This document shows, piece by piece, positions 3,701-50,745 of a stretch of DNA of 64,000 nucleotides. The notes beneath the pieces were generated by a model that ran no database searches, was not told where the DNA came from, and saw nothing but the letters and a program-made list of their open reading frames with translations. Made by a program: the position numbers and the translations under genes. Origin of the DNA: Hypericum androsaemum (lineage: Eukaryota > Streptophyta > Magnoliopsida > Malpighiales > Hypericaceae); the NCBI GenBank assembly GCA_963995505.1, contig OZ023181.1, positions 22,192,221-22,256,220 of the forward strand, written 5' to 3'. How positions within the stretch are numbered: position 1 is the first letter of the stretch; every line of letters begins with the position of its first letter.

Positions 3701-3839
3701 CAGCCGTGGAATCTCCGAACACGAAGATGGCCGGAAACGCCGTATCGGCAAAGCACCGTGAAGAACACACAAGAGCAACAATAACTGTCGCTATTGAAAG
3801 AAAAATACCAATATCTTTCAACCCTCGAGACATTAGCAT
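797..3839 (-). CDS. GDSL esterase/lipase, secreted, five exons
   Basis: Plant GDSL-type serine hydrolase (SGNH fold), expected to cleave acyl esters in the secretory pathway or cell wall. Exons by splice-site reading: 3839-3572, 3075-2930, 2077-1850, 1349-1100, 1023-797. All have GT-AG borders, phases agree, and they join to 1119 nt, 372 residues, normal for the family. Residues 1-31 form a hydrophobic signal peptide. Block I is FVFGDSTADVG with nucleophile Ser44; block II is NFASGGAGLL (Gly126); block III is GSND (Asn184); block V is DRYHPSQ with Asp335 and His338. All catalytic residues are present, so the enzyme should be active. The Met at 3839 was chosen because it directly precedes the signal peptide. 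A TATA-like GATATATAGC lies near 3911-3920. Intron 3 holds a TRIM element and intron 2 (counting from the 3' end) a foldback element. It resembles the At5g55050 type, a family-level guess only. Confidence 0.93.
1429..1808. mobile_element. Foldback Mutator-like MITE in a GDSL intron
   Basis: The left end (GAAAAGTCTAATTTAGCACC) is roughly repeated in inverse at the right end (GTTACTAAAGTGAATTTTTC), and the arms stay complementary inwards, for example CGCGTTTGACGCAT against ATGCATCAAACGCG. Flanks read TAAAAAAGA and TAAAAAAAT, 7 of 9 matching, which fits a decayed 9-bp Mutator-type duplication. There is no coding capacity. It lies wholly inside the intron between exons 3 and 4 of the GDSL gene, so it should be spliced out. 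Confidence 0.6.
2133..2475 (-). mobile_element. TRIM (miniature LTR retrotransposon)
   Basis: Two 111-bp direct repeats at 2133-2243 and 2365-2475 flank 121 bp of internal DNA. Read on the minus strand each LTR starts with the TRIM-like TGTTGAGAATCCCACATCGG pattern (the outer copy starts TATTG) and ends TCTAACA. Immediately inside the 2365-2475 LTR, the minus strand reads TGGTATCAAAGCGG, a primer binding site for initiator tRNA-Met with one change. The other side has a purine tract (TCTCGTTTGAGGGGG) before the 2133-2243 LTR. A perfect 5-bp duplication CAATG flanks it at 2128-2132 and 2476-2480. It has no ORF. It sits in the intron between exons 2 and 3 of the GDSL gene. Confidence 0.93.
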
Positions 3840-4372
3840 TTCTTATTTTTTTTTCTTGCAAATTATTTTGTTTGTGTTCTCAATTGATTGTTTCGGAAAC
3901 AATTGGTGCCGATATATAGCAGCCGGTGGTTGGCGACTAGGATGACGACAAGCACTGATAATTGAATATTGGTGACGGCAATTGTGATAAATTCCATATG
4001 ATGTGAACAATTTTGATGGTGATTTGCATTTCACAAATTAGACATTAATATCTTGATCAGGTGCTCGCTTGAAGAATAAATATACGGTTCCGTTGTTTAA
4101 CTTATAAGAATACATGCGAATATATTTGTGGTGCGTTCCCTGTCTTGTGCACGGAATGCACATATATGTTTATTTATTACTTATAAGAATACATGCGAAT
4201 ATATTTGTGGTGCGTTCCCTGTCTTGTGTACGGAATGCACATATATGTTTATTTATTACCAAAGAGTACTTGCTTTGTTGGTATAAAAAAATGGTGAATG
4301 ACGAGTGATCATGGTTCAAATTGGTCACAACAAAAAATTACTTATCTAAGAAAAGCTTATTTACTTATTTGG
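3840..4372. other. GDSL promoter region with a 79-bp tandem duplication
   Basis: This is the 5' flank of the minus-strand GDSL gene. At 4100-4257 a 79-bp unit beginning ACTTATAAGAATACATGCGA occurs twice head to tail, with a single C/T difference noticed (GTGCACGG against GTGTACGG). The Copia element starts at 4373, so the GDSL upstream region is cut about 530 bp from its ATG. Confidence 0.85.
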
Positions 4373-4805: not shown

Positions 4806-4850
4806 ATTGGTATCAGAGCCCGGGTTTAGGGCGTGGTGGGAGCAATCACG

Positions 4851-7800
4851 ATGGGTGATGTGAGATCGCCCGTGGAGAAGTTCGATGGCGTCGATTATGG
4901 CTTCTGGAAGATGCAAGTAGAGGACTACTTGTATGGCAAAGATTTGCACTTGCCCCTTGATGGGAAGAAGCCAGAGGACATGAAGGAAGAGGAGTGGAAG
5001 CTCCTAGATCGGAAAGCGATGAGCGTGGTGCGCTTGTCTTTGTCTAGGAACGTGGCCTTGCACACAGTAAAGTCAAAGACCACGAAGGAGATGTTGGAGA
5101 CGTTGTCCGAGATGTACGAGAAGCCATCGGCGGCCAACAAGGTTCACTTGATGAGGAAGTTGTTCAACCTTCGGATGGCGGAGGGTACGATGGTGACCAA
5201 GCATCTTCACGAGTTCAATGCAACGATAGCCCAATTGAGCTCGGTTAAGATCGACTTCGATGATGAGGTACAAGCCCTAATTTTACTAAGTTCTTTACCC
5301 GATAGTTGGAATGGCACGGTCACGGCAGTGAGTGCCTCGGCGGGGAAAGTAACGCTCAAGCTAGATGAGGTGAGGGATTTGATTATGAGTGAGGAGATTC
5401 GTAGAAAGGAATCCGGAGTAGCCTCGAGTTCAGCTTTGAGCATGGGTAACAGGGGAAGGTCTGAGAATAAGTGGAAGGGGAAGAAGGACCGGGGTAGGTC
5501 AAGATCTAAATCGAAGGGTGGTCCGAAGAAGGACAAGAGCTCGGTGCAATGTTGGAATTGTGAACAATATGGTCATTTCAGAGATCAATGCACGGCACCA
5601 AAGAAGGAAAAATCCGCAAATGCGACAACGGAAGATCACGGGGATGCGTTGATCTTGAGTGTGAGCAGTCCATTGGAGGAGTGGGTATTGGATTCGGGAG
5701 CATCATTTCATTCTTGTAGCGATGCAGGGATGATGGAGAAGTATGTCATAGGTGATTATGGCAAAGTCTATCTAGCGAATGATGACCCTTTGAAAATTGT
5801 GGGCATGGGAGATGTTCGGATCAATACTCCTAATGGATCTTTGTTGTTGTTGAAAGGGGTGAGGCATATTCCTGGGTTGAAGAGGAATTTGCTATCCGTG
5901 GGGCAACTAGATGATGAAGGTTACACAGTGACCTTTGGTTGCAAGACATGGAAAATTACCAAAGGAGCTAGGGTGGTGGCTCGAGGTTTGAAGGAGGGTA
6001 CTTTGTATATGACGAAGAACACCAATGAGAGCATTAATGTTGCAGGTGCAACGGATGATGCAGATTTGTGGCATAGTCGCCTTGGCCACATGAGTGAGAA
6101 GGGAATGAGGGTGCTATGCTCGAAGGGGAAGCTTCCAGGCCTCAAGACAGTGGAAGTGGAACTCTGTGAGGATTGTGTTTTCGGGAAGCAGAAGAGAGTG
6201 AGTTTTTCGAGAGCTGGCAGATCTCCAAAGGAGCAGAAGCTTGAGTTGGTCCACAGCGATTTGTGGGGACCAGCACCAGTGGCATCCTTGGGTGGTTCGT
6301 TATATTACATGACCTTTATTGATGATTCTACAAGGAAGCTGTGGGTGTACTTCTTGAAACATAAGTCAGAAGCCTTTGATGCCTTCAAGAAGTGGAGAGC
6401 CCTTGTGGAAAATGAGACAGGTCTCAATGTGAAGTGTTTGAGATCTGACAATGGTGGAGAGTATGAGCTCCAAGAGTTCAAGGATTACTGTGCAGCAAAT
6501 GGGATTCGCATGGAGAAGACAGTAGCTGGAACCCCCCAGCAAAATGGCATCGCAGAGAGGATGAACAGAACAATCAATGAGAGAGCTAGGGCCATGCGAC
6601 TGAAGTGTGGCTTACCAAAGATGTTTTGGGCGGATGCAGTGAACACCGCGGCTTTCTTGATCAATAGAGGACCATCAACTCCTTTGGATAATGGGATACC
6701 GGAGGAGGCTTGGAGTGGGAAGGAGGTTGATCTTTCTTACCTTCGAGTATTTGGTTGTGTGTCATATGTTCATATTGATGCAGGTGATAGGAGCAAACTG
6801 GATGCTAAGTCCAAAAAGTGCACATTCATTGGATATGGTGGAGATAATTTTGGTTTCAGGTTTTGGGATGAGAAGAACCGCAAGGTTATCAGAAGCCGAG
6901 ATGTCATATTCAATGAGAAGGTTTTGTACAAGGACAGGGGGAGTGTATCCGACGAGGTGGGTTCTAGCAGTGAGGTGATTGAGTTAGACATCTCGAACTC
7001 AGGTGGGAGCAAAAGGGCACAAGATGGCCAGGTGGCCAAGGAGGAAGCGGAACCAAGTTCTCCACCACCATTGGTTCCGGTAAGGAGGTCCACAAGACAA
7101 CGTGGGTCTCCAGATAGGTATTCGCCAGCTAATTTCTATCTCCTATTAACTGATGGAGGAGAACCAGAAGATTTTGCAGAGGTTCAGAAGAGTGGACAAG
7201 TGGACAAGTGGAAGCTTGCAATGGATGACGAGATGAAGTCATTGAGGAGTAACATGACTTGGGAACTAGTCCAACTCCCTAAAGGCAAGAAGGCACTGCA
7301 AAATAAGTGGGTATATAGAGTTAAGCAAGAGGCGGATGGCACCGAGCGTTACAAGGCAAGACTGGTTGTGAAGGGATTTCAACAGAAATATGGTATAGAT
7401 TTTACTGATGTTTTCACTCCTGTTGTGAAGCTGACCACTATTCGTATGGTGTTGAGTATGGTAGCTTCAGAGAATCTGATGTTGGAGCAGATGGATGTGA
7501 AGACAGCATTTCTCCATGGTGATCTAGAGGAAGAGATCTACATGGTACAACCAGAGGGATACTTGTCAGATGGTAAAAGTGAGCTTGTGTGCAGGTTGAG
7601 GAAGAGCTTGTATGGCTTGAAGCAAGCTCCAAGGCAGTGGTACAAGAAGTTTGATGGGTTCATGCATGAGATTGAGTTCGTGCGCTGTGAGGCTGATCAT
7701 TGCTGCTATTTCAAAAGATTTGACAATAGCTATATCATCCTTCTGCTTTATGTTGATGACATGTTGATAGCAGGCGCCAGTGCTCGGGAGGTGAGCAAGG

Positions 7801-8714
7801 TGAAGAAGCAATTGTCTGAGAGGTTTGCCATGAAGGACTTGGGGGAGGCTAAGCAAATCCTTGGGATGAGGATTGAGAGGAATAAGGCTGATGGGAAGCT
7901 GTTTCTCTCACAGGCTGAGTACATTGAGAAGGTGTTGAAGAGGTTCAACATGCAAAAGACCAACCCCAAGTTGACTCCTTTAGGTGGGCACTTTATGTTG
8001 TCCAAGAAGGATTCGCCTAAGAGTAAGGCGGAGAAGGCTCAAATGGAGAAGACTCCTTATGCATCGGCAGTCGGAAGCTTGATGTATGCTATGATTTGCA
8101 CAAGGCCAGACATAGCACATGCGGTGGGAGTAGTGAGCAGATTCATGAGCAATCCAGGTGAGCAGCATTGGATCGCAGTGAAGTGGATCCTTGGTTACTT
8201 GAGAGGTACTACTAAGAAGGCCCTGTGCTTTGAGGGCAAAGATGTGAAGCTGACAGGCTATTGTGATGCAGACTTGGGGTCCAATGATCATGATGGCAAG
8301 AGGAGCACTAGTGGTTATGTGTTCACACTGGGAGGGACAGCGATATCTTGGGCTTCCAGGTTGCAAAAGGTTGTGGCTTTGTCAACCGCAGAAAGTGAGT
8401 ATGTGGCTGTGACAGAAGCAAGCAAAGAGATGGTATGGTTGCAAAACTTCTTGGGAGAATTGGGCAAGGAGCAAAGTGAAAGTGTGCTCCACAGTGACAG
8501 CCAAAGTGCGATACACTTGGCTAAGAATCCCGCATTCCACTCAAGGACAAAGCACATTGAGTTGAAGTATCACTACATTCGAAGTCTATTGGAGAGGAAG
8601 ATCTTGCAACTTGAGAAGATTGACGGGAAAGTGAATCCCGCGGATATGTTGACTAAGGTGGTTACCTTAGAGAAGCTGAAGCTTAACATGGCTTCAGCGG
8701 GTCTAGTAAACTAG
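4851..8714 (+). CDS. Copia gag-pol polyprotein, single frame
   Basis: A 1287-residue polyprotein if started at the ATG at 4851; an upstream GTG at 4833 in the same frame is not a likely start. Order seen: UBN2-type gag; CCHC zinc knuckle CWNCEQYGHFRDQC at about residues 234-247; aspartic protease with DSGA at about 281-284; integrase zinc-binding region, then the catalytic core with DDS, RSDNGGEY (about 531) and GTPQQNGIAER; reverse transcriptase with YVDDM at about 967; RNase H with DADLGSND at about 1140 and STAESEY. No stop or frameshift interrupts it and each catalytic motif that I can recognise is intact. Many ORFs on the opposite strand are shadows of it. Confidence 0.97.
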   Translation: MGDVRSPVEKFDGVDYGFWKMQVEDYLYGKDLHLPLDGKKPEDMKEEEWKLLDRKAMSVVRLSLSRNVALHTVKSKTTKEMLETLSEMYEKPSAANKVHLMRKLFNLRMAEGTMVTKHLHEFNATIAQLSSVKIDFDDEVQALILLSSLPDSWNGTVTAVSASAGKVTLKLDEVRDLIMSEEIRRKESGVASSSALSMGNRGRSENKWKGKKDRGRSRSKSKGGPKKDKSSVQCWNCEQYGHFRDQCTAPKKEKSANATTEDHGDALILSVSSPLEEWVLDSGASFHSCSDAGMMEKYVIGDYGKVYLANDDPLKIVGMGDVRINTPNGSLLLLKGVRHIPGLKRNLLSVGQLDDEGYTVTFGCKTWKITKGARVVARGLKEGTLYMTKNTNESINVAGATDDADLWHSRLGHMSEKGMRVLCSKGKLPGLKTVEVELCEDCVFGKQKRVSFSRAGRSPKEQKLELVHSDLWGPAPVASLGGSLYYMTFIDDSTRKLWVYFLKHKSEAFDAFKKWRALVENETGLNVKCLRSDNGGEYELQEFKDYCAANGIRMEKTVAGTPQQNGIAERMNRTINERARAMRLKCGLPKMFWADAVNTAAFLINRGPSTPLDNGIPEEAWSGKEVDLSYLRVFGCVSYVHIDAGDRSKLDAKSKKCTFIGYGGDNFGFRFWDEKNRKVIRSRDVIFNEKVLYKDRGSVSDEVGSSSEVIELDISNSGGSKRAQDGQVAKEEAEPSSPPPLVPVRRSTRQRGSPDRYSPANFYLLLTDGGEPEDFAEVQKSGQVDKWKLAMDDEMKSLRSNMTWELVQLPKGKKALQNKWVYRVKQEADGTERYKARLVVKGFQQKYGIDFTDVFTPVVKLTTIRMVLSMVASENLMLEQMDVKTAFLHGDLEEEIYMVQPEGYLSDGKSELVCRLRKSLYGLKQAPRQWYKKFDGFMHEIEFVRCEADHCCYFKRFDNSYIILLLYVDDMLIAGASAREVSKVKKQLSERFAMKDLGEAKQILGMRIERNKADGKLFLSQAEYIEKVLKRFNMQKTNPKLTPLGGHFMLSKKDSPKSKAEKAQMEKTPYASAVGSLMYAMICTRPDIAHAVGVVSRFMSNPGEQHWIAVKWILGYLRGTTKKALCFEGKDVKLTGYCDADLGSNDHDGKRSTSGYVFTLGGTAISWASRLQKVVALSTAESEYVAVTEASKEMVWLQNFLGELGKEQSESVLHSDSQSAIHLAKNPAFHSRTKHIELKYHYIRSLLERKILQLEKIDGKVNPADMLTKVVTLEKLKLNMASAGLVN

Positions 8715-31365: not shown

Positions 31366-32319
31366 TCAACAAGAGAGTATATTAAGAAGGGAGACTCTAT
31401 TGTGGATCAATCCCTTGAAGAGACACTCCAACTCCGTTTCAAGCGCTTGGACGCTCTTCTCCAAGCTCTCCATCTTCACCTGTGCAATGTCAACCTTCTC
31501 CGCTTCTGAACCACCTTCTTCGCTCGAATGGCTAGCCAACAAGTTGGCGAGCGCGAAATCCACGCTCTCCATCTCGTCGAAGCTCCCTTTCTGCCCTTCA
31601 CAGGCACCATCCCCCCTGTACATGACCAGCCTGGAGACCAAGCACCACCTAGTTTTTGTGGTCTTCGGTTTTTGTACCGGCAAGGAGAGGAAGGACAAGA
31701 GCGAGGCGAGGACCGAGAGAGTAATGGAGCTTGCCTCTTTGACCACTCGGATCACCGCGGACAAGTGCTGATCTTGGAGGAGATGACCATGATCCTTAAC
31801 TGGGACCTTGTCCCCTTGCTTCAACGAAGTGAAACACTTGGCTACCATCTTCTTCACCTTCTTCCTCGAGCTGAAGTAGCTCGCGACGCAGCCCTCGATG
31901 CTTACGACCGCGTGGTCAGCACGGGACTTGCTCCGCCTGAGAGCGGACTGGAGCTCCCGGATGGCTTCCTTGATGAGCAAGAAAGCGTCCCTCGTGACGT
32001 TGCATGCGTCCAAGTACATGATGAGATCGTCCAGGACGCTGTTCACCAGCCTCCCTTCTCGGTGTTGCAGTAGGGATTGTTGAGTTTGTGGTAAGCTCAG
32101 GAGGCTGTCGATGCACGCGTAAACGAGTCCGAGGCCGGATATGGCGGCACAAATGGTGTCGGATTTTGATGAGGTTGACGGTGATTCGCAACAAGTAGCG
32201 AGCTTGATCAGCTCTGCTTCGAGTTTCCGTATTGCAGGATGCGACCTGGCGGGGAAGCTAATTGATCTGGTATTGTAGGTGGGATTAGGAGAAGGCTTTG
32301 AAGAGAAAGAAGCCGTCAT
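31366..32319 (-). CDS. DUF241 protein, copy 1 (single exon)
   Basis: Plant-specific DUF241 family protein of 317 residues, no introns, as usual for the family. It starts at the ATG at 32319. Conserved features shared with the two other copies in this window are an N-terminal RSISFPARSHPAIRKLEAEL block, a central ALRRSKS basic segment followed by a Lys-rich helix, and a terminal LIHNRVSLLNILSC. It is predicted largely helical, with coiled-coil character around residues 270-300 (VKMESLEKSVQALETELECL). The biochemical role of the family is not established. No signal peptide. It is the most diverged of the three copies. Confidence 0.9.
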   Translation of the reverse strand: MTASFSSKPSPNPTYNTRSISFPARSHPAIRKLEAELIKLATCCESPSTSSKSDTICAAISGLGLVYACIDSLLSLPQTQQSLLQHREGRLVNSVLDDLIMYLDACNVTRDAFLLIKEAIRELQSALRRSKSRADHAVVSIEGCVASYFSSRKKVKKMVAKCFTSLKQGDKVPVKDHGHLLQDQHLSAVIRVVKEASSITLSVLASLLSFLSLPVQKPKTTKTRWCLVSRLVMYRGDGACEGQKGSFDEMESVDFALANLLASHSSEEGGSEAEKVDIAQVKMESLEKSVQALETELECLFKGLIHNRVSLLNILSC

Positions 32320-32596
32320 TTTATTGCCTTAATTTCTCTCTTTTTTTGGATAGGTGTATTGCCTTGGTTTCTTAGTTTAGGTATGAATAAATGAGTCAAG
32401 GCTGGTGTGATCCATATACTGCAGAATATGAGAGAGGCAAGCAGGTTGGAAATTAATTTGTAGGGCCAAATTCTGACTGTGCATGACGTGATAAATACCT
32501 TAATGCGATGTTTCAAATTTTCATAAGTTCACCAAAGATTTAATATAGACACCCGATAATATACTAATCTTCAAAATGTGGAGATCAATTTTTTTT

Positions 32597-33066
32597 GGGA
32601 AAAGTCCACTTTAGTACCTTGTGGTATCGCCCAAAATCACTTTAGTACCCTGTGGTAAAAAATCGACCAATCGAGTCATACTTATTCCAATTAACATCAA
32701 AAAGGTCCTCGGGCAGCTGCCCGGAGCTGCCCAGACCCGCCCGAACGGTGCCCGGACTACGTGGCCAGCCACGTCACCAAAACTTGATGACGTGGCGCCA
32801 CGTGGACAACCATCTTCTTCCCTCTCTTCCTCTCCGCCTCCTCCTCCTCCTCCTCCTCCACGTGGCGCCACGTCATCAAGTTTTGGTGACGTGGCTGGCC
32901 ACGTAGTCCGGGCAGCATTCGGGCGGGTCCGGGCAGCTCCGGGCAGCTGCCCGAGGACCTTTTTGATATTAATTAGAATAAGTATGACTCGATTGGTCTA
33001 TTTTTTACCACATGGTACTAAAGTGATTTTGGGCGATACCACAGGGTACTAAAGTAGACTTTTCCC
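32597..33066. mobile_element. Foldback Mutator-like element in a LINE tail
   Basis: 470 bp, nearly a perfect palindrome: GGGAAAAGTCCACTTTAGTACC at the left is mirrored at the right, and the arms run on through GGTCCTCGGGCAGCTGCCCG and ACGTGGCGCCACGTG to a CT-rich loop at about 32810-32860. Flanks ATTTTTTTT and ATTTTTTGT make a 9-bp duplication with one change. The target was evidently the T-rich (poly-A) tail of the adjoining LINE fragment. Confidence 0.9.
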
Positions 33067-33560
33067 ATTTTTTGTGAATAGAGAAGCTTTATTAAGGGAA
33101 AAATAAAGGGAAAGCAACGAAAACAAAACAGAGGAAAAATCAACAAATATTTACAAAGAATCACCCTGCCTACACGGAGCCCCGAACCCCACCGAGCAAA
33201 GATTAGAAATCATCGGACTTTTAGGGAGTCCCAGAAGAGGTCAAGCTCCTGATTATCTATGTCGTGGAGCGTCCTAGCCTACCAAAGCCATTCTCGCATC
33301 CTATAGTAGACAGAGTGTTTGAGAAGCTCCCGATCGCATTGCTTTTCCTATGTCGTGGAGCGTCCTAGCCTACCAAAGTCATTCTCGCATCCTATAGTAG
33401 ATGGAGTGTTTGAGAAGCTCCCGATCGCATTGCTTTTCCTCAAAAATTACCTTGTTTCTAAGCAACCAAATGCTCCACAAGGTGGCCCCGAACAAAGAAT
33501 ACCAAGCTTTCCCCAACGTTCCACCACCTTCCAACCCGGTCCAAGCCGAGAGTGCAGTGA
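33067..33560 (-). mobile_element. 5'-truncated LINE fragment, copy 1
   Basis: The minus strand encodes the tail of a plant LINE (STRALSAWTGLEGG, LWSIWLLRNKVIFEEKQ, YYRMRE), then a 3' UTR and a poly-A tract (T-run at 33067-33073). It contains a 91-bp direct duplication (33258-33348 and 33349-33439, starting TATGTCGTGGAGCG). It is broken at 33560, where an LTR-like sequence begins, and closely matches copy 2 at 34311. Confidence 0.8.
33258..33439. repeat. 91-bp tandem duplication in the LINE fragment
   Basis: Two head-to-tail copies starting TATGTCGTGGAGCGTCCTAG, with a few differences (CCAAAGCC against CCAAAGTC, AGACAGAG against AGATGGAG). LINE copy 2 has one unit only, so the duplication happened after the two copies parted. 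Confidence 0.9.
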
Positions 33561-34990: not shown

Positions 34991-35907
34991 GTGTAGATCA
35001 ATTAAATGATGATTGTTCTAATTTAATTATTATTATCTTTTGAATATAAATGCCTAGAAAGTTGTTGATTTAAATTTAAAAATGAAATTTTTTGTTTTAT
35101 TCAGCTTAAACGTATATCAATGTAATAGATTTCGGGGTGCTAAATGTTTTTGAAAAAAGTATATGCGGGGGATGTATCTGATCACCAGTAGATTCCAAAT
35201 TTTGAAGAAGATTGGGCATGGATTTGGATAGCCGACCTTTGCAATCTTTTTTATGCACCGTCACGGCTCCACCACCATTTCAGGCTTTGTCTCTCTCTGG
35301 TACGTACAGTTAACCCGTATTGGTGCCATCACAGGAGTGGCCCCTCCAAGTTCTCTGGATATGGAATGCCTAGGGAGACTACTCATCGAGATCCCACTAG
35401 ATCAATAGTTTCTCGATAAAAGTACTACTCAAATTTGATTACAAATAGAAGTTCAATAAAAAAAAATTCTGAAATTCTTAAGTTTGAGTTCTCAAGAATG
35501 CTACTTAATTGTGAATTTTGTTATTTTTTAACAATTTTATTAAGATGATATCAACCCAAAAAATACGGAGGTTACCAAATGATATAATTAATGGTTGCAC
35601 GAGTGGCATGATTATGTTCTCTACTAAGATACCAACCTGCCAGGTACTCGGGTACATGAGTTTGCCATTTGTATTATGGATTTCGCACAAGTTCATGAAT
35701 CCTACTTTCTTCGTCCAAATTGAGAGCTTATAATGAATTTTTGAAGACAGTGGCTAATTATTACATTTATTTGATTTGATTTCCTTGCTGACCTTATCCT
35801 CCAACTGGGCCAACTCTGACAGCTTTGGTCTATTCATGATCATAAAGACCTATGCAATAGTAGTGTCCTGGACGTATGTTCTCGTGTCGGTTCTTTTTTT
35901 TCGAGGG
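34991..35907. other. Intergenic, no supported gene
   Basis: AT-rich with no convincing gene. The phrase GGTTGCACGAGTGGC near 35593 recurs as AGTTGCACGAGTGGG near 48672, a short dispersed repeat of unknown class. Confidence 0.5.
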
Positions 35908-36205
35908 GTTGGATTGGGGTAATTTTTCAAAAGGGGCTTTATTTTTTCGACAATTCCCTGAATGGGGTTGTCAGGGGATGTTTTTCTTGTCTGGGGTCGA
36001 GCCAGAAACCGCTCCAGTAGGAGCGTTTTTCCTTTGCCAAAAACCGCTCCACCGGGAGCGATTTTCCTTTGCCAAAAACCGCTCTACCGGGAGCATTTTT
36101 TGTTTTGCCAAAAAACGCTCCCGGTAGAGCGGTTTTGTGTTGTCACTGAAAAAAAAATTAGCTACAGTGAGAAGGGGGAGAAAATCCAAATAAAAGCACA
36201 CAACG

Positions 36206-36275
36206 GCTCTTATTCGGAATCGAACCCAACTCCACATTTTTAGATAAGCGCTCAAACCAACCAAACTACGAGAGC
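36206..36275 (-). pseudogene. tRNA-like sequence in the left arm
   Basis: On the minus strand GCTCTCG...AAGAGC ends can pair, with box A-like TAGTTTGGTTGG and a perfect box B GGTTCGATTCC. The anticodon stem does not pair, so identity cannot be given. It is the mirrored partner of 37904-37977. Probably a tRNA pseudogene or a tRNA-derived Pol III promoter. Confidence 0.65.
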
Positions 36276-36813
36276 TTACTGATTTATAACTTTGTAATAA
36301 ATAATATATTTCATAGATAAGGGTTCTATGAAATATGTAACATATTATTTTTTAAATAAATACGTATTTGTATAAAATAATATTTTTTAAGTAAAAATGT
36401 AAAAATAATATATTTCATAAATACAAATATATTTAATAAATAATATATTATATAAATACAAATATATGTAATATAAATAAATAATAACATATTACATAAA
36501 TATAGATAATATATTACATAAATACGTATTTATTTAAAAAATAATATATTTCATATATTTATGAAATATATTATTTTTTAAGCTAGAAACTGTTCCATAA
36601 GAAGCTTTTTCTTTTTCGACCAAAAATAGCTCCATGGGGATACGTATTTATCTAAAAATAATATATTTATGAAATATTTTTCTTTTTCTTTTTCGACCAG
36701 AAACCGCTCCCCATGGAGCGTTTTCTTTTTCGACCAAAAACTGCTCCCCATGGAGCGGTTTCTGGTCGAAAAAAAAGACTTTTTCGACCAAAAACCGCTC
36801 CCCATGGAGCGGT

Positions 36814-36835
36814 TTCTGACTTCTAATCAGACGAT
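36814..36835 (+). pseudogene. tRNA-Arg(UCU) anticodon-arm fragment
   Basis: TCTGACTTCTAATCAGACGA plus TT matches the anticodon arm and variable loop of tRNA-Arg(UCU) 60 bp before the intact gene, with a perfectly paired TCTGA/TCAGA stem. Acceptor, D and T arms are missing. It starts exactly where the left arm of the palindrome ends (overlapping TCTG). Confidence 0.75.
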
Positions 36836-36874
36836 TATAATAAAAATCGAGTTTTCTTTTTTTCGACTAGATAA

Positions 36875-36947
36875 GCGCTCGTGGCCTAATGGACAAGGCG
36901 TCTAACTTCTAATTAGACGATTGTGGGTTCAAGTCCCACCGAGCGTG
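36875..36947 (+). tRNA. trnR-UCU: tRNA-Arg (anticodon UCU)
   Basis: 73 nt that fold fully: acceptor GCGCTCG/CGAGCGT (one G-U at 1-72), D stem GCCT/AGGC, anticodon stem TCTAA/TTAGA with loop CTTCTAA, variable CGATT, T stem GTGGG/CCCAC with loop TTCAAGT, discriminator G. No intron. Box A (TGGCCTAATGG) and box B (GGTTCAAGTCC) are intact. A run of five T at about 36954-36958 can end Pol III transcription. It lies in the loop of the palindromic element and on structure alone could be functional. Confidence 0.93.
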
Positions 36948-37903
36948 TATTTATTTTTACCAAAATATATATATGGTTTTCAATTTTTATTATAATATCT
37001 CTGGATTTTTCCCTCGAAGAAATCAAACTGAAATAAACCTTATAAGTTATAACTGAGTCAACCCCTTTTCCTACTTAGGTGGACATGTATAAACCTTATA
37101 AAAAAAAGACCGGAGTCGAAAAAAGAAGAAGTCAGACATTAGTTGAAGCTTGAAGTATGTCGTGTGCCCAGACCTTATTTTCAAAATCCAATTGGAAAGA
37201 TGGAGTATTAGACATGTTTTGGTAATGATTGGAGTTTAAGATCGTTATCTCGGGTAAATAATTTTCTTCCGATAAATTTTTAAGAAAGCAACTAATGTCT
37301 AAGTTCAATACAGAAACCGCTCCATGGGGAGCAGTTTTTGGTCGAAAAAGAAAACGCTCTGTATGGAGCGGTTTCTAGTTTTTTTTTCCGACTGCGGTCC
37401 TTTTTTTTCGACCAGAAACCGCTCCATGGGGAGCGGTTTTTGGTCGAAAAAGAAAACGCTCCATGGAGAGCGGTTTCTGGTCGAAAAAGAAAAAGAAAAA
37501 TATTTCATAAATATATTATTTTTAGATAAATACGTATCTCCATGGAGCTATTTTTGGTCGAAAAAGAAAAAGCTTCTCATGGAGCGGTTTCTAGCTTAAA
37601 AAATAATATATTTCATAAATATATGAAATATATTATTTTTTAAATAAATATGTATTTATGTAATATATTATCTATATTTATGTAATATGTTATTATTTAT
37701 TTATATTACATATATTTGTATTTATATTACATATATTATTTATTAAATAAATTTGTATTTATGAAATATATTATTTTTACATTTTTACTTAAAAAATATT
37801 ATTTTATACAAATACGTATTTATTTAAAAAATAATATGTTACATATTTCATAGAACCCTTATCTATGAAATATATTATTTATTACAAAGTTATAAATCAG
37901 TAA

Positions 37904-37977
37904 GCTCTCGTAGTTTGGTTGGTTTGAGCGCTTATCTAAAAATGTGGAGGTCCTTGGGTTCGATTTCGAATAAGAGC
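37904..37977 (+). pseudogene. tRNA-like sequence in the right arm
   Basis: Same sequence as at 36206-36275 but with a 4-nt insertion (GGTCC in place of G) before the T arm and GGTTCGATTTC as box B. Box A TAGTTTGGTTGG is unchanged. Not a functional tRNA by structure. Confidence 0.65.
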
Positions 37978-38276
37978 CGTTGTGTGTTTTTATTTGGATT
38001 TTCTCCCCCTTCTCACTGTAGCTAATTTTTTTTTTCAGTGACAACACAAAACCGCTCTACCGGGAGCATTTTTTGGCAAAACAAAAAATGCTCCCGGTAG
38101 AGCGGTTTTTGGCAAAGGAAAATCGCTCTCGGTGGAGCGGTTTTTGGCAAAGGAAAAACGCTCCCGTTGGAGCGATTTCTGGCTCGACCCCAGACAAGAA
38201 AAACATCCCCTGACAACCCCATTCAGGAAATTGTCGGGGAAATAAATCCCCTTTTGAAAAATTATCCGTTGGATTG

Positions 38277-38906
38277 GGTGTGCAAGTGAGCCATATTATC
38301 TGGAATGCGATGTACCCTTGGACTAAGGAAGACGTGAGTGGGTTGTAATCAGACAGTTGAGATTTAATTGGGCAAGATAATTGGTACATTATGCAACAAC
38401 AATGGTGCAACATGTAACATACAATGGTGCAACGGCGTTAGACAATGAGACAACACACTTTAAAATAAAATTTTCCAAAATTACCCTTATCGAACCTCAA
38501 ATATTATAAATTTGTCATCACGCGCGGGTCATATCACATTTGTTATATTAAAGTGGGGATGAAACTTGACTTTCAAAGTGTCGACAATTCCGACGAGGCA
38601 TGATCAATTTTCGAGCAAATTTTGAATTCCAAATCAGAAAGTAGAGTCGCCAAATTCATCGTCAAATGATTGACTCGATAATGCTTGACCCACTCTGATA
38701 GAAGCCTTGAACTTGTGCTCTAGAGATATGATTAATAATCACTTTATTTAAAGTATTATTTTCCCCCACTATATATTGTTAATGGATTCCCGCAAGTACA
38801 TTTCTAGGAATGCTTAAGAATTCTAGAATTTTTAAGTAACAATTCGTAAAATGCGGCTCAAAAACTATAACACCAATGTCTTATGGAGGAAATGACGAGA
38901 TGGTGA
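38277..38906. other. Intergenic, no supported gene
   Basis: Mixed AT-rich DNA between two transposons. No gene, RNA or repeat recognised. Confidence 0.5.
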
Positions 38907-38916
38907 GGAGATTTAA

Positions 38917-39284
38917 GGGTAAAAAATACCCATGGTCACTGAACTTTAATAATTTTTTATCCATGGTCACTAATCTATACTAAATTACTTAGGTATGGTC
39001 ACTCCGGCCACTTTTTTGCCAGAAATCTTCCCGGAAACAAGAAAAATTGGTCCCAGAGATCTTTTCCGGCAAAGTCCGGTCATCTAATTAACGTTCCAAC
39101 CCCAACCTAATAATCCTAGGATCAATTTTTCTTGTTTCCGTGAAGATTTCTGGCGAAAAAGTGGCCGGGGTGACCTTACCTAAGTAATTTAGTATAGATT
39201 AGTGACCATAAAGGGTAAAAAAATAGTTTAGTGACCATGAACAAAAAATTATTAAAGTTTAGTGACCATGAGAGTTTTTTACCT
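38917..39284. mobile_element. Foldback Mutator-like element (368 bp)
   Basis: Starts GGGTAAAAAATACCCATGGT and ends with its mirror (ACCATGAGAGTTTTTTACCT). The arms are complementary to a short loop near 39090. A 10-base direct repeat GGAGATTTAA flanks it (38907-38916 and 39285-39294), 9 bp of which is the likely duplication. No coding capacity. Confidence 0.85.
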
Positions 39285-41713: not shown

Positions 41714-42529
41714 CTATTGAGACATTATATTCAATAGAGAAGCTCTTGTCTTCATCAAACGCCTAAAGACGCTCTCCAATCTCTTCTCGAGTCCTTCAAT
41801 GGTAATCTCTAGCTCCTCCAACCTCTCTCGTGCAACTTGCACGTTTTCAATTCCCAATTCACTTAACGAAGCATCCACAAGAGCAATCTCGTTCAGATTC
41901 TCTCGTGTTTCTTCACAAACGACGCTCCCCTTGTGCAGAACTTTCAAGACAGATGACCATCTGCTGTTCTTCGCCTTTGGCACTGACAAGTAGGCCAATA
42001 GGGTTCGGAAGATGGAACGGGTCACGAGATCAACCTCGCTAAGCACCCGAACAACTTCGGGTAGCGGTTGTTCCTGGTCCTTATTCTCCTTCTGCCTCAG
42101 TTCATTGACCAACTTCAAAGCCGTCTTCCTCAACTGCTTCCTGACGCATATAAAGCTCTTCGCGCTAGCTTCAACGCTCGCGTCGTCCTTTCGCCTGCGA
42201 AGCGCGGATTGAACTGCACGAACATGTTCCTTGAAATGAAGCATGGAGTCCACCAAGATGCTGCATATGTCAAGCACCTTGTCGGAACCATCCATGGCTC
42301 CGTCTAGGCATTTCATCGTATCCTCTCGGGTTGAGGCCAAGTTGAGCACGTCCTCCAGGGAATCGTACAAGCTCTCTAGCCCGGACAGGCCAATGCAGAT
42401 CGACCCAGATGTGGACGTCGACGAAATTTCCATTCTCTTGAGCTTGCTCAGCTCTTCTTCGAGCCTGACGTTGCTGGGATGTGACTTGGATGGCAAGCTA
42501 ACCGACCTGACGTGGCACTTGGTAGCCAT
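41714..42529 (-). CDS. DUF241 protein, copy 2 (single exon)
   Basis: 271 residues from the ATG at 42529. The N terminus VRSVSLPSKSHPSNVRLEEE, the mid-protein ALRRRKDDASVEASAKSFIC and the C terminus RRLMKTRASLLNIMSQ follow the family pattern. A helical, coiled-coil-like region precedes the C terminus (VARERLEELEITIEGLEKRL). It is closest to copy 3 (same RSxSLPS(K/R)(S/T)HP start, SSTSTSGS linker and KTRAS(L/I)LNI(M/L)SQ end). A TATA box (reverse strand TATATA) lies at about 42635-42643, about 110 bp before the ATG. The role of the family is not established. Confidence 0.92.
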   Translation of the reverse strand: MATKCHVRSVSLPSKSHPSNVRLEEELSKLKRMEISSTSTSGSICIGLSGLESLYDSLEDVLNLASTREDTMKCLDGAMDGSDKVLDICSILVDSMLHFKEHVRAVQSALRRRKDDASVEASAKSFICVRKQLRKTALKLVNELRQKENKDQEQPLPEVVRVLSEVDLVTRSIFRTLLAYLSVPKAKNSRWSSVLKVLHKGSVVCEETRENLNEIALVDASLSELGIENVQVARERLEELEITIEGLEKRLESVFRRLMKTRASLLNIMSQ

Positions 42530-42896
42530 GTCTGTGTATTCGTATTAGAATTGAGAATTTGTTTCTCTTCTTCTTCTTCTGAAATATTGGAGGGTTGGAA
42601 GTTTGATGAGTTGGGTTAGACATGGCAGAGCTCAGTATATATAGGAACAAGGCCAATCACCTCATTGTGGTCACCATGTGGAGCCTGTGGTCTCCCCTTA
42701 ACGTTCGGTTACTTGTCCCATCTTAGGGTCAATTATTATAACGATATTTTTCGGCCTAATTATATCTTATTTTTATATTTAGTGAATCATTAATTCAAAT
42801 TGACCTACATTAACAAATCTCATTTTGCTAAGGTTGATATCATATTTGGAGAATATCTAAATTTAAGTAGAGAAAAGTGATTTAAAAAATTGAACA

Positions 42897-46456: not shown

Positions 46457-47284
46457 TTACTGGGACAATATATTCAAGATTGAGGCTCTAGTTTTAATCA
46501 ATCTCCTAAACACACACTCCAAAGAAGTCTCCAAATCTCCAACGATCATCTCCAACACATCCAACCCTCTGCGGATCTTCTCGGAGTCCAAATTGCCCTC
46601 ACATAAAGCAAAGTCAACTCTCTCCAATTCGTTGACTTTCTGGTGATCCTCACTTGCAACCGATCCTTTGTGCACCAGCTTTGTGACGAGCGACCATTTG
46701 CTCTGCCTCGGCTTCGACGCCGGGGATGATAAGAACACCAAGAGGGACTTGAAGACGGAGAAGTTGACAGAGTTGACTTCTCTGAGAACCAAAGTCAACG
46801 CCGGGATTTCCTGATCCTGGTTGGTGTCCATTTGTTTCGTTACTGTTTCCGTCAGCTTTTTCACCTCCTTCTTCATCATTTTCCTGAAGGAGGTGTAACT
46901 TTTTACGTCGCTTTCCATGGTGGAATCGCCTTTCCGCCTTCTAAGGGAAGATTCGAGAGCACGGATCTGCTCCTTGAATCGGGACAGGAGGTCCCTCGTC
47001 ATCTCACAGACGTCGAGGAGCTTCATCGACCCGTCTAGGAGCTCGTCGAGGCATCCCTCGTTCTCGAAAGTGGAAAGTTGTTGGACCGAACCCGAGTTGA
47101 GTAGGTCTTCCAGGGAGACGTACAAGTCCTCCAATTCTGACAAGCCAACGCTAACTGACCCGGACGTGGACGTGGATGACACCTCCCATGTCTTGAGCCT
47201 GTTTAGCCCAGCCTCGATCTTATTGGCCTTCGGATGGGTCCTGGAAGGCAAGCTTATTGATCTAGTGTGATACTTGGTCGCCAT
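46457..47284 (-). CDS. DUF241 protein, copy 3 (single exon)
   Basis: 275 residues from the ATG at 47284. The N terminus TRSISLPSRTHPKANKIEAG, SSTSTSGSVSVGLSELEDLY and SSLRRRKGDSTMESDVKSYT match copy 2 position by position. The C terminus is RRLIKTRASILNILSQ. Mostly helical, no signal peptide or membrane segment. A TATA box (reverse strand TCTATATAAGC) at about 47363-47373 lies 80-90 bp before the ATG. Together the three copies form a dispersed tandem family on one strand. Confidence 0.92.
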   Translation of the reverse strand: MATKYHTRSISLPSRTHPKANKIEAGLNRLKTWEVSSTSTSGSVSVGLSELEDLYVSLEDLLNSGSVQQLSTFENEGCLDELLDGSMKLLDVCEMTRDLLSRFKEQIRALESSLRRRKGDSTMESDVKSYTSFRKMMKKEVKKLTETVTKQMDTNQDQEIPALTLVLREVNSVNFSVFKSLLVFLSSPASKPRQSKWSLVTKLVHKGSVASEDHQKVNELERVDFALCEGNLDSEKIRRGLDVLEMIVGDLETSLECVFRRLIKTRASILNILSQ

Positions 47285-50155
47285 TTTGGAGGTTTTTGTT
47301 GGATCTTAAGAAAAATGGTTATTGTTTTCTTTTGGATTGAAGGGATTGGGATGGTTTGTTGTGCTTATATAGAGACATCTTTTGGAGGAGACAGAGCTTA
47401 TATTATACAAGTGACCATGTGAAGCTAATGTGGGCTCCCCTCCTACTTCGGTTTCGCTGTCACGTATTTTGGTCAACAAATCTCTCATAATTTCATTGGC
47501 CAATGAACGTAGGAAATGAGCTGTATGCTAATTTGTCAGCTTTTGGGAGGGCTTTTAGTAAAGAGTCACTGGCAAGTTTGCCTCCAATTCTGCCACGTAA
47601 CTCACGCTCTCTTTTATCAAGAAATAATTTGTTAAAATAAGGTAAAAGTTCAATTTGGTACTTTGTGATTTGATATCATTTTAACAAAGTACTTGTTATT
47701 TCATTTTGTTTTTATTGGAAGAAGAGTTTAAGAATTTGGTACAATTTTAGAGTTTGCGACATTGGAATTCAGGTGGATATAAGATGTTTATGAAAATGGG
47801 TCGCGGCATAGAATTCAACCAGCAGAATGTCACTCAAGTGTCGTATACAGAAATTTCACTTGTCAATTTGATGTTGTAAATCACACTTATAAAAAGATTG
47901 ATATTGTAAATCAAAAGGTACTAAATTGAAAGATTCGACATACCCCAAAGCATTAAAATGAGCTAATGGGAGTTGATCCATGTGATAAAAGATTTAAATT
48001 TACTTAAAAAAGTATTAATTTCAAGTCTTACAAATATAAAAGATACTAATGAAAGAACCGCCATCGAAATAGAGTTCGTGATGTAGGGAGTATGTGTATT
48101 GGCAACCATGAATCAGTTGATTTCACAATATATCAGAAACGGGCTATAGTCTCGTTCTATTAATTTTATGAATACCAGAAGACGATAGAGAATTAGAAAA
48201 AACCTTAAATTTTTATTTATCAAATTCAACTACCCAAAATAATAGAAAATTTTCTACTTATAAAAAACCAAAGAAACCTATTACCTATAAATCAAATTGC
48301 TAATAGCAAAACTATAGATAAATAATAAATCTAATATCATTCTTTATCGTCATTATTCTCCTCCGATTGGAAAAATTCGTTCTCGAAATTGATGTCGTCG
48401 ACCAGCTGGAGATCCTCGTAACAATACTAAAATTTGAATACATAAATTTCACCCAAAAAACATTAAAATGAACTTTACCCAACAATAAACACCTAGTGTA
48501 GTAGTGTAAGCATCTTATCTGTAATGTCTCTTATTGGAGCGACCTACAACACCACAACGTTAAGAATCGATACTTAATGAGATTAATAAAATGGAGGGAA
48601 TCTAGAATTGTTAATGTCATGATTAAGGATTTCGAGGTACATCTTGCAAAGGAGGCCTTCTTAATTATTATACTAGTAGTTGCACGAGTGGGTTGTACTC
48701 GTAATGTCTCCGATTTTATGTGCTAATGCTTTATTTAACTCCATACTCAACGAAGCTTGTAATGAAATGTGAGTCCTGGTCATCGATTTCCTCGACAATT
48801 GTACGAATAACGCGAAGACACATGCACCGGCTATTTCATCGTAACACGTGTACCGCCACTCATAATTAATCGCCTGGCTATTTTATTGCTCTTTGGAGAC
48901 CTATATGAGATTTCTATTATTAATCTCATGTACGAATTAAATAGGTGTTTTTTTTCCGGTGGTTAAGATAACGTGATTTTGTACCAAGAGAAGAATACAA
49001 ACCTACTTTTTTCTTTTTTCTTCTTTGAAGGACTAGCACCCATTTTTTTCGGAAGGCGATTATTAGTACGGAAAGAATTATATGCTACCGATTGTAGTAA
49101 ACTTGTCTGCCGAAATAAATTGAGAAAAAAGTGAATATGTTGTTCTAATTTAATTAAAAATTGAATCTGAGGCATATATTATGTACAAGTGAATGTCTAT
49201 ATGCGTTCATTTAAAGATTAAATATGAGGCATGGAGATATAAAGAATGTCACATTTTGTATTTATGATCTATTTATATTTGAATTAGTCTGGGTTAGATA
49301 TACATATTTTTACGAGCGAGGAAATCTAGAAAATGTATTATGTTTCGGGAGGAAAAGGACAAAGAAGATGGGGGCCCATTTCATGGGGACGCATGTGGTA
49401 ATAATGTGGATCGATCCTCCTGCGATTTTAGATTCTGTTGTATTTCAGTTGGCCAACAGTCCGCGACACATTCGTGTTAAATTAATCAAACTACGGTCGC
49501 CGTGATCAGAGGATCCATGGCGCTTTAGCGTACATGGAAACCAAGTTCCATGCCGCAGATTGTCGTTTCCATGCCTCCTTAATTGGAGGATGGATTGAGC
49601 GGGGATTAAAGAAATCTTGTCCATAGGTGTGGACTAGATTTTGGACCATTAGATTCATTTTTTTAGAAAAATCTTTAAATCTGATGGTCAATAACCAATC
49701 AAAGACATTTTTGACTTTTTCAAACAATAAAAGATACCCAATTAATACTCCTTCAAAAAAAAAGATATCAATTAAATACAACCCACCATCTCTCCCACGT
49801 CTCTTCCTTTTATTCTTCTTCTTTTTCTCTCTCTCCCTCCTCCATTAAAAATTCCTCACGTCTCTTCCTCTTCTTCTTCTTCTTCTTCTTCTTCTTCTCA
49901 CCCTCCACCCGCGTCGCTGGGTTGAAGAGCCGACGCTGCCGCTGCTGGACAAGCCGTGCACCACCCCGCGTCGCTGGGTCTAAGTCCGCAAGTCACGTCG
50001 TGCCTAGAGAAGTGGACCCGCGTCATCGCCAGAGAGAAAAGGAGCTCCCCGCTCCCGCCCAGCCTTCGCGTAATTTTGGGTTTAGGGATTGAAATGGCAT
50101 CGGGAGAGAGAAGAAGAAGAAGAGGAAGAGACTCGGTCGCGAATAATGCCGCCGT
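47285..50155. other. Long gene-poor AT-rich region
   Basis: No supported gene. An AAATCATTTTAAC/TTAAATT-type AT-rich spacer fills 47.6-49.2 kb. At 49800-50160 the DNA becomes CT-rich (a CTT microsatellite at about 49868-49897) and then GC-rich, with CCGCGTCGCTGGGT occurring twice (about 49909 and 49966). A plus-strand frame there (49956-50168) ends in an Arg-rich run and looks like transposon-borne or UTR-like sequence, not a gene. Confidence 0.5.
49868..49897 (+). repeat. CTT microsatellite
   Basis: TCTTCTTCTTCTTCTTCTTC-type run, about ten units. Confidence 0.9.
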
Positions 50156-50159
50156 ACTG

Positions 50160-50745
50160 ATATTATAAAAAATTCTGCTTGATTTTAGTCTGTATGATAT
50201 TGGTTTTAGTCGCTGATGATATTTGTTTGAGTATGTATTAATATTGGTTTTCAGATGTAATGATATTGGTTTGAGTACGTACTGATATTAGTTTTTGTCT
50301 ATACTGATATTGGTTTTACTCTGTACTGATATTGGTTTGAATCGCTAATAATATTGGCTTGAGTATGTATTGATATTGGTTTGAGTACATCTTGTTATTG
50401 ATTTGATTACCTATTGATATTGGTTTTAGTACGTATTGACATTTTTTTAGTCTGTACTGATATTGGTTTTCAGACGTAATGATATTGGTTTGAGTACGTA
50501 CTGATATTGGTTTGAGTACGTAGTGATATTGGTTGGTTTGAGTACGTACTGATATTGGTTTGAGTACGTACTGATATTGGTTTGAGTACGTAGTGATATT
50601 GGTTTGAGTACGTAGTGATATTGGTTTGAGTACGTAGTGATATTGGTTTGAGTACCTACTGATATTGGTTTGAGTACGTAATGATATTGGTTTGAGTACG
50701 TAATGATATTGGTTTGAGTACGTAATGATATTGGTTTTCTATTGT
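50160..50745 (+). repeat. 22-bp minisatellite
   Basis: About 26 tandem copies of TGATATTGGTTTGAGTACGT plus two more bases. Copies are diverged from 50160 to 50480 and almost identical from about 50480 to 50740, where variants (ACGTACTG, ACGTAGTG, ACGTAATG) occur in runs. The more uniform right part suggests recent expansion. Confidence 0.95.

Follow-up and report, generated by a model that had tools for sequence, protein, structure and literature searches.

The stretch of DNA analysed here (the window) comprises 64,000 nucleotides of the Hypericum androsaemum genome and corresponds to C2:22192221-22256220 in a 385-Mb assembly of 29 contigs, for which C-numbers are used as contig labels. At window positions 35917-38267 lies a foldback element of 2351 bp, and the loop between its two inverted arms holds a complete transfer RNA (tRNA) gene, tRNA-Arg(UCU). 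The tRNA in the loop was copied from a native locus on contig C1, as a matching donor together with its 3' flank was found there.

Structure of the foldback element

The element is bracketed by a perfect 9-bp target-site duplication (TSD), GTTGGATTG, which lies at 35908-35916 and 38268-38276. Its terminal inverted repeats (TIRs) have the ends GGGTAATTTTTC at 35917-35928 and GAAAAATTATCC at 38256-38267. The left arm of 861 bp (35917-36777, plus strand) and the right arm of 868 bp (37400-38267, minus strand) are 96.5% identical in an inverted-repeat comparison, with ungapped blocks that include 335 nt at 97% and 241 nt at 95%. These data bear out the initial annotation of this DNA, in which two inverse arms of about 0.9 kb with matched ends and an outer 9-bp duplication were described at exactly these coordinates. 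The loop measures 622 bp between the arms, or 492 bp if two further inverted blocks of 40 nt (36779-36818 and 37311-37350) are reckoned as arm, close to the 494 bp first given. Both arms contain 35-37-bp tandem units around GAAACCGCTCC..GGAGCGGTTT, AT-rich repeats and a degenerate tRNA-like stretch, which lies approximately at 36205-36275 (minus strand) on the left and approximately at 37904-37978 (plus strand) on the right. Thus, the TIRs are composite and contain internal tandem repeats, as in foldback elements, and are long, as in Mutator-like elements (MULEs).

The gene in the loop, tRNA-Arg(TCT) at 36875-36947 on the plus strand, is called by ARAGORN and scores 68.4 bits against Rfam RF00005, confirming that it is complete; it is the only sequence in the window that passes the Rfam cut-off. 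It has the cloverleaf, A box (36882-36892) and B box (36926-36936; both positions assigned by hand) and T-run terminator of a functional nuclear tRNA gene, the T5 run being 7-11 nt downstream. The gene is part of a larger captured segment (36871-37097, plus strand) that consists of 4 nt of upstream sequence, the tRNA and a 3' flank from which about 54 bp are deleted in this copy. To its left lies a 22-nt tRNA-Arg fragment (36815-36836, plus strand; 100% identical to the donor), the end of which overlaps a weak 17-nt inverted match to the 3' flank of the donor (36834-36850; 94%, E 0.07). To its right lies a second captured segment (37141-37316, plus strand) from C10:19507370-19507546.

The element belongs to a family of non-autonomous elements with Mutator-type structure

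In a genome search with the element, the best 40 of 581 candidates were scored, giving 279 matches, and in a search with its outer 96 bp 40 of 709 candidates were scored. The sample fetched for comparison consisted of 39 loci chosen by similarity to the window element and four loci chosen by TIR match alone; two further 601-bp pieces (L107 and L108) were also fetched. The TIRs of the family are of the GGGTAATTTTCCAAA type, and the TIR 21-mer has 166 exact matches in the genome (84 forward and 82 reverse), while the reversed control has none on either strand. TSDs were counted at the 34 loci with both TIR ends (L020, L024, L026, L034 and L035 were excluded as one end was not found). At the exact ends, the flanks match at eight or more of nine positions in 27 of these 34 copies and in none of 1122 mismatched left/right pairs. 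Thus, the TSDs of the family are mostly 9 bp long, as is the case for MULEs, and the duplication described in the window is a family-wide property.

The 34 elements span 981-2922 bp, and their longest stop-free stretch is 222 codons. Among the 100 TIR sites listed out of 166, 15 convergent pairs lie less than 20 kb apart, all at a spacing of 0.45-3.15 kb, and there is no long convergent pair. The short spacing and the lack of longer stop-free stretches argue that the elements are non-autonomous. Of the assignment as Mutator-like that was made initially, the structural part, i.e. the 9-bp TSDs and the long TIRs, stands. Identity between the two arms of an element declines from 96.5% in the window element to about 70% in other copies.

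A mini-element that measures about 0.53 kb lies in one of the additional pieces, L107 (C4:964700-965300). It has the two TIR ends and one tRNA-like copy, and is flanked on both sides by GAAGAATTT, as read by eye.

The tRNA gene was captured from a native locus on C1

A genome search with the 73-nt tRNA identified 10 places, and all 10 first-look candidates were scored; more diverged genes would escape this search. The 10 matches comprise three full-length copies in elements, one partial copy in the element on C4, and six loci outside elements, on C6, C1, C4 (12100627), C16 (11214590), C14 and C10. Three of the nine full-length tRNA-Arg(UCU)-like loci with at least 82% identity are thus borne by elements. 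The native genes on C6 and C1 (C1:1189143-1189215) are identical over all 73 nt, so that changes in the element copies can be polarised from native to element.

Among the six native loci, C1 is the one that matches the loop beyond the tRNA, at C1:1188941-1189016 and 1189071-1189219 on the minus strand. The donor is 93% identical to the element copy on C16 and 92% identical to that on C4, in each case over 283 aligned columns. It aligns to the window element on C2 in two blocks, of 149 columns at 93% and 80 columns at 90%, the intervening approximately 54 bp being missing in C2. The captured stretch consists of the tRNA gene and about 200 bp of its 3' flank; of the sequence that precedes the native gene, it includes no more than 4 nt. 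The capture of a complete tRNA gene that had been proposed from the structure of the element is therefore supported by a donor locus.

tRNA sequences are often retroposed, and a retrotransposed tRNA or a short retroelement might have entered the loop without capture of genomic DNA. By eye, the tRNA-like sequence of the arms, with its short body and T run, does resemble a short interspersed element (SINE). However, the loop copy continues for about 200 bp into the C1 3' flank beyond the first T run, which is not expected of a normally terminated transcript, and we consider this route highly improbable.

The loaded element has moved to at least three sites

Whole copies of the gene are carried by the window element on C2 and by elements at C16:14642847 and C4:14474170, and the tRNA-Arg sequence is absent from 39 of the 43 fetched element loci. 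The three elements are flanked by different perfect 9-bp duplications, GTTGGATTG (C2), CTATTATTG (C16) and ACTATTATC (C4). The loaded element has therefore moved to at least three sites, in line with the initial proposal that the element mobilises a tRNA gene. The loaded elements were thus inserted as units and dispersed, and two donors have contributed to their cargo.

The absence of the tRNA from most relatives would also fit two insertions of solo arms in opposite orientation on either side of a resident tRNA-Arg gene, with the arms subsequently made alike by exchange; the initial annotation had named such an arrangement as the one that would overturn it. However, one 9-bp duplication brackets all 2.35 kb, and the single perfect TSD around each whole loaded unit argues that the tRNA is not a resident gene between two insertions. 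Moreover, the same cassette is found in C16 and C4 with other TSDs, and its flank matches C1, where outer-arm sequence is not found within 1.5 kb of the donor. The two-insertion scenario is in effect refuted, and we give it next to no credence.

The second cargo, from C10, is 97.7% identical to its donor in C2 and 98.3% in C16 over 177 columns. It is not present in C4, where the C1 segment passes directly into arm units, and it was not found in the other 37 of the 39 loci searched. We infer that C2 and C16 probably gained this piece after their split from C4, an order helped by its higher identity to the donor. In the C4 element, part of the C1 segment is present a second time. The element on C18 (L012, C18:14634500-14639600, element at 2068-4178), the flanks of which match at 9 of 10 positions, has no whole tRNA gene and contains a 21-nt fragment, TCTGACTTCTAATCAGACGAT, alone. 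Its left arm is 95.7% identical to that of C16 over 974 columns and is followed by the fragment, other sequence and a different right half. This chimera could be an intermediate of capture or a rearranged or recombinant descendant. In a tree of 68 arm rows, the arms of the three loaded copies lie within one cluster of 12 rows with weak support (81/66), and this cluster also holds arms of the elements on C18, C7, C13 and C8.

State of the captured tRNA genes

The three element copies all pass the Rfam cut-off, at 68.4 (C2), 67.8 (C16) and 65.2 bits (C4), compared to 71.1 bits for the native genes on C1 and C6. They share the change C40T (position numbers were assigned by hand). The window copy differs from C1 and C6 at four of 73 positions, the other three changes being T20C, G30A and G57A. 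When pairing is assigned by hand, G30A re-pairs with U40 and restores the stem pair hit by C40T. The intact cloverleaf and the internal promoter boxes for RNA polymerase III (Pol III) indicate that the cargo may be transcribed.

It is conceivable, albeit rather doubtful, that the element tRNA is transcribed and functional, contributes to the pool of UCU-decoding tRNAs and is maintained by selection. The bit scores close to the native value, the restored stem pair in the window copy and the T5 run 3' of the gene speak for such a role. On the other hand, the C4 copy has a T-loop change within the B box, from TTCGA to TTTGA, and the upstream CAA motif, which has a role in plants and is present at C1 and C6, was not captured. 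Moreover, the tRNA of the window copy is not poorer in private changes (3/73) than its flank (0/149; p = 0.03); a strict count, which omits the third position as the partial C4 copy cannot be aligned clearly there, gives 2/73 (p = 0.11). The comparison thus gives no sign of purifying selection on the window tRNA. Transcription-associated mutation is a known process with which this distribution could be compatible, the numbers being too small to say more.

An older tRNA-like sequence in the arms

The tRNA-like sequence of the arms is widespread in the family. BLAST gives 68 matches in 37 of the 39 loci, mostly one per arm. The basis on which these loci had been selected was similarity to the window element, which itself contains this sequence; all four loci selected by their TIRs alone have it as well. 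It is recognised by ARAGORN in 19 of the 39 loci, in most cases lacking a proper anticodon, and of the arm copies in 40 scanned element loci, 12 copies from 10 loci pass the Rfam tRNA cut-off at 29.4-40.7 bits. Both window copies fall below this cut-off. An Rfam search of 35800-38400 at E<=10 (84 matches) has no tRNA-family match in the tRNA-like stretches, and the only match there is to 11 nt of tmRNA (36216-36226, 7.1 bits). In the genome, all 37 matches to the arm sequence that were examined, of the best 40 (of 91 candidates), lie in loci with element sequence, namely 35 in fetched element loci and two in L107 and L108 with TIR or arm matches.

The host tRNAs used for comparison were 34 of the 54 listed, from a genome search with RF00005 in which 63 of 25516 candidates were scored. 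The closest host tRNA to five arm test sequences is one called Lys(TTT) by ARAGORN for four and Ile(TAT) for one, at 76-85% of aligned positions, with scores of 21-27.5 against maxima of 12.5-17.5 for shuffles compared to 12 of the 34. In addition, L046 (C19) and L047 (C15) have one and two extra inner tRNA-like copies, respectively, of a divergent form, so that at least two tRNA-like forms occur in one element.

The presence of the sequence in nearly all loci fetched by similarity and all those fetched by TIR match, together with the copies that pass the Rfam cut-off, could indicate a Pol III unit that is active and serves the family, e.g. in replication, escape from silencing or formation of double-stranded RNA. 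The pairing data point in the other direction. In the arm copies, the proportion of paired cells is 85% for the acceptor stem, 92% for the D stem and 82% for the T stem, and 38% for the anticodon stem. When the partners are slid by 1-3 columns, the values are 31-47% (acceptor), 15-68% (D), 21-90% (T) and 45-81% (anticodon); one slid T version and all slid anticodon versions lie above the real pairing. Of 300 shuffles, 216 pair at least as well as observed for the acceptor, 223 for the D, 45 for the T and all 300 for the anticodon stem, and no stem is clearly beyond the shuffles. Similarly, the identity of the core (0.90) is not above that of both flanks (0.93 and 0.885). We therefore rejected selection for maintenance as a tRNA and regard an active Pol III unit as improbable. 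Instead, we read the arm sequence as the likely relic of an older uptake of a tRNA or SINE that was kept by arm homogenisation.

Other features of the window

A small inverted-repeat element with 94-nt arms of 94% identity lies at 38963-39209, about 0.7 kb to the right of the foldback element, and a near-perfect palindrome with 211-nt arms (96%) and a 50-nt spacer at 32596-33067. An unbroken open frame of 1294 amino acids at 4830-8714 (plus strand) has Copia gag, integrase and reverse transcriptase domains and, judged by these coding domains, looks like a young long terminal repeat (LTR) retrotransposon. Three similar minus-strand open frames of the BPS1/DUF241 type within 16 kb (31366-32328, 41714-42544 and 46457-47305) likely form a local gene family; the first has a Pfam BPS1 domain, the second finds PF03087 proteins, and the third was assigned by eye. 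In a protein search with one gene of the window, the best relatives with a name come from eudicots, with identities of about 50%, and two weak ones come from monocots. A tandem array with periods of 22, 44 and 66 bp at 50179-50737 has minus-strand open frames running through the repeats.

Discussion

Based on these data, we suggest, with a probability of roughly 90%, that a non-autonomous Mutator-type foldback element copied the C1 tRNA-Arg gene into its loop and that the loaded element then dispersed. In this model, the palindrome presumably moves as one piece by means of a transposase that acts in trans, which generates the 9-bp duplications observed. While the repetitive arms were being replicated or a break in them repaired, the strand under synthesis would have switched to the tRNA-Arg(UCU) locus on C1, so that the whole gene and about 200 bp of the 3' flank found at the donor were copied into the loop. 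The loaded element subsequently moved to at least three sites, and the 177-bp segment from C10 would have joined the lineage of C2 and C16 later. The 22-nt fragment and the weak inverted piece of flank next to it suggest that several switches may have occurred within one event.

An alternative route, which PMC8903248 favours for capture by plant Pack-TYPE elements, is that two whole elements inserted on the two sides of the C1 tRNA gene and that their outer ends were then mobilised together. This route is published and needs no template switching. However, it predicts inner TIR ends, while in the window the exact 12-nt ends occur once each, at the outer borders only, which speaks against a simple form of tandem insertion. 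Arm units form the borders of the cargo, the route does not explain the C10 piece or the fragment with the (weak) inverted flank, and the outer arm (its first 250 bp) has no match at E<=0.01 in 3-kb stretches around the six native tRNA-Arg loci. We consider tandem insertion and re-mobilisation very unlikely; the borders of the cargo appear to fit template switching better.

Several observations weigh against capture by a moving foldback element as we propose it. A transposase-coding member of the family was not found among the fetched element loci; of 736 candidate PF10551 matches in the genome 150 were scored, many with open frames of about 585 amino acids, and none of these 150 coincides in position with the element loci fetched. 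The AT-rich central part of the arm weakly matches the C1 locus away from the tRNA (at best 69% over 154 columns, E 1.5e-5, with the 861-bp arm as query), which we take to reflect base composition. The C10 piece may have been lost from C4 rather than gained by C2 and C16. The loaded copies are not a single clade in the arm tree (three label changes compared to a shuffled mean of 5.8), a pattern that arm exchange could produce. Finally, the arm tRNA-like sequence and the 5' junction of the C1 donor have a 10-nt word, ATAAGCGCTC, in common, but this microhomology is only suggestive: 18 of 386 sampled donor positions reach the same word length, and the 5' ends of the five other native tRNA-Arg loci reach junction words of 5-8 nt. 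The word length at the C10 3' junction is reached at 116 of 347 positions and gives no support. Microhomology was therefore rejected as proof of template switching.

The design of the loaded element has parallels in several known systems. In Pack-MULE and Pack-TYPE elements (PMC8903248), host DNA between TIRs is copied from distant donors and then multiplied, and the donors on C1 and C10 conform to this pattern; for this reason, the initial suggestion of an undescribed system was too strong. The cargo differs, as protein-gene fragments are found there and a complete tRNA gene with 3' flank and a C10 piece here, so that the main cargo does not come from a protein-coding gene. Tm1 of root-knot nematodes (PMC3169594), a foldback-type Mutator, has composite TIRs that vary in length and contain tandem repeats, its TSDs mostly measure 9 bp, and it carries a gene inside. 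Within a Tm1 element, the two arms share 93% identity on average, compared to 96.5% in the window element and less in other copies here, and Tm1 has transposase-coding members, whereas none were found in the present family. The closest published model is FoSTeST, described for the multicopy Pack-TIRs Ssk-FB4 of Drosophila (PMC8277862), in which repetitive foldback arms, a template switch to a site elsewhere and transposition of the chimera are combined; it concerns a protein gene in flies rather than a plant tRNA gene, and the microhomology evidence is weaker in our case. Turmoil-1 of Caenorhabditis elegans (PMC2572040) has host gene sequence inside its inverted terminal repeats, comparable to the tRNA-like sequence of the arms, although in Turmoil-1 these are protein-coding fragments rather than a degenerate tRNA. 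DNA transposons that target multicopy small RNA genes (PMC3706591) are likewise associated with small RNA genes. By contrast, they insert into these genes, while here the gene was copied into the element, and the three target sites differ.

The word tRNA does not occur in the text of the Pack-TYPE survey (PMC8903248), in a 2026 review of plant gene capture (PMC13317346), or in the papers on Tm1 (PMC3169594) and Ssk-FB4 (PMC8277862). Among the open-licence literature matches listed, titles and abstract openings mention no complete tRNA gene in a Mutator-like or foldback element. Neither the arm pattern in viral contigs nor the tRNA-Arg pattern in prokaryote genome contigs has a match. Thus, we regard the system as Pack-MULE-type transduplication with a new cargo, a whole tRNA gene; as far as the literature searched reaches, the tRNA-like arms are also new.

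Little is understood of the ways in which tRNA genes increase in number and change their place in genomes. More speculatively, and at present with low odds in its favor, the family may have taken up tRNA sequence at least twice, in the past in the arms and recently in the loop, and may act as a vehicle that expands isoacceptor gene number; the tRNA-like sequence of the arms would then perhaps have served as an annealing site that recruited the new gene via ATAAGCGCTC. Three of the nine detected full-length UCU-Arg loci are now transposon-borne, with internal Pol III promoter boxes. The observations suggest that foldback elements can capture more than protein genes and that the terminal repeats of an entire family can come to include sequence derived from a tRNA. 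With the donor, the vehicle and its offspring all present in one genome, the elements of H. androsaemum provide a concrete case for transposon-driven change in isoacceptor gene number, in which palindromic transposons are able to spread complete tRNA genes in addition to pieces of protein genes.

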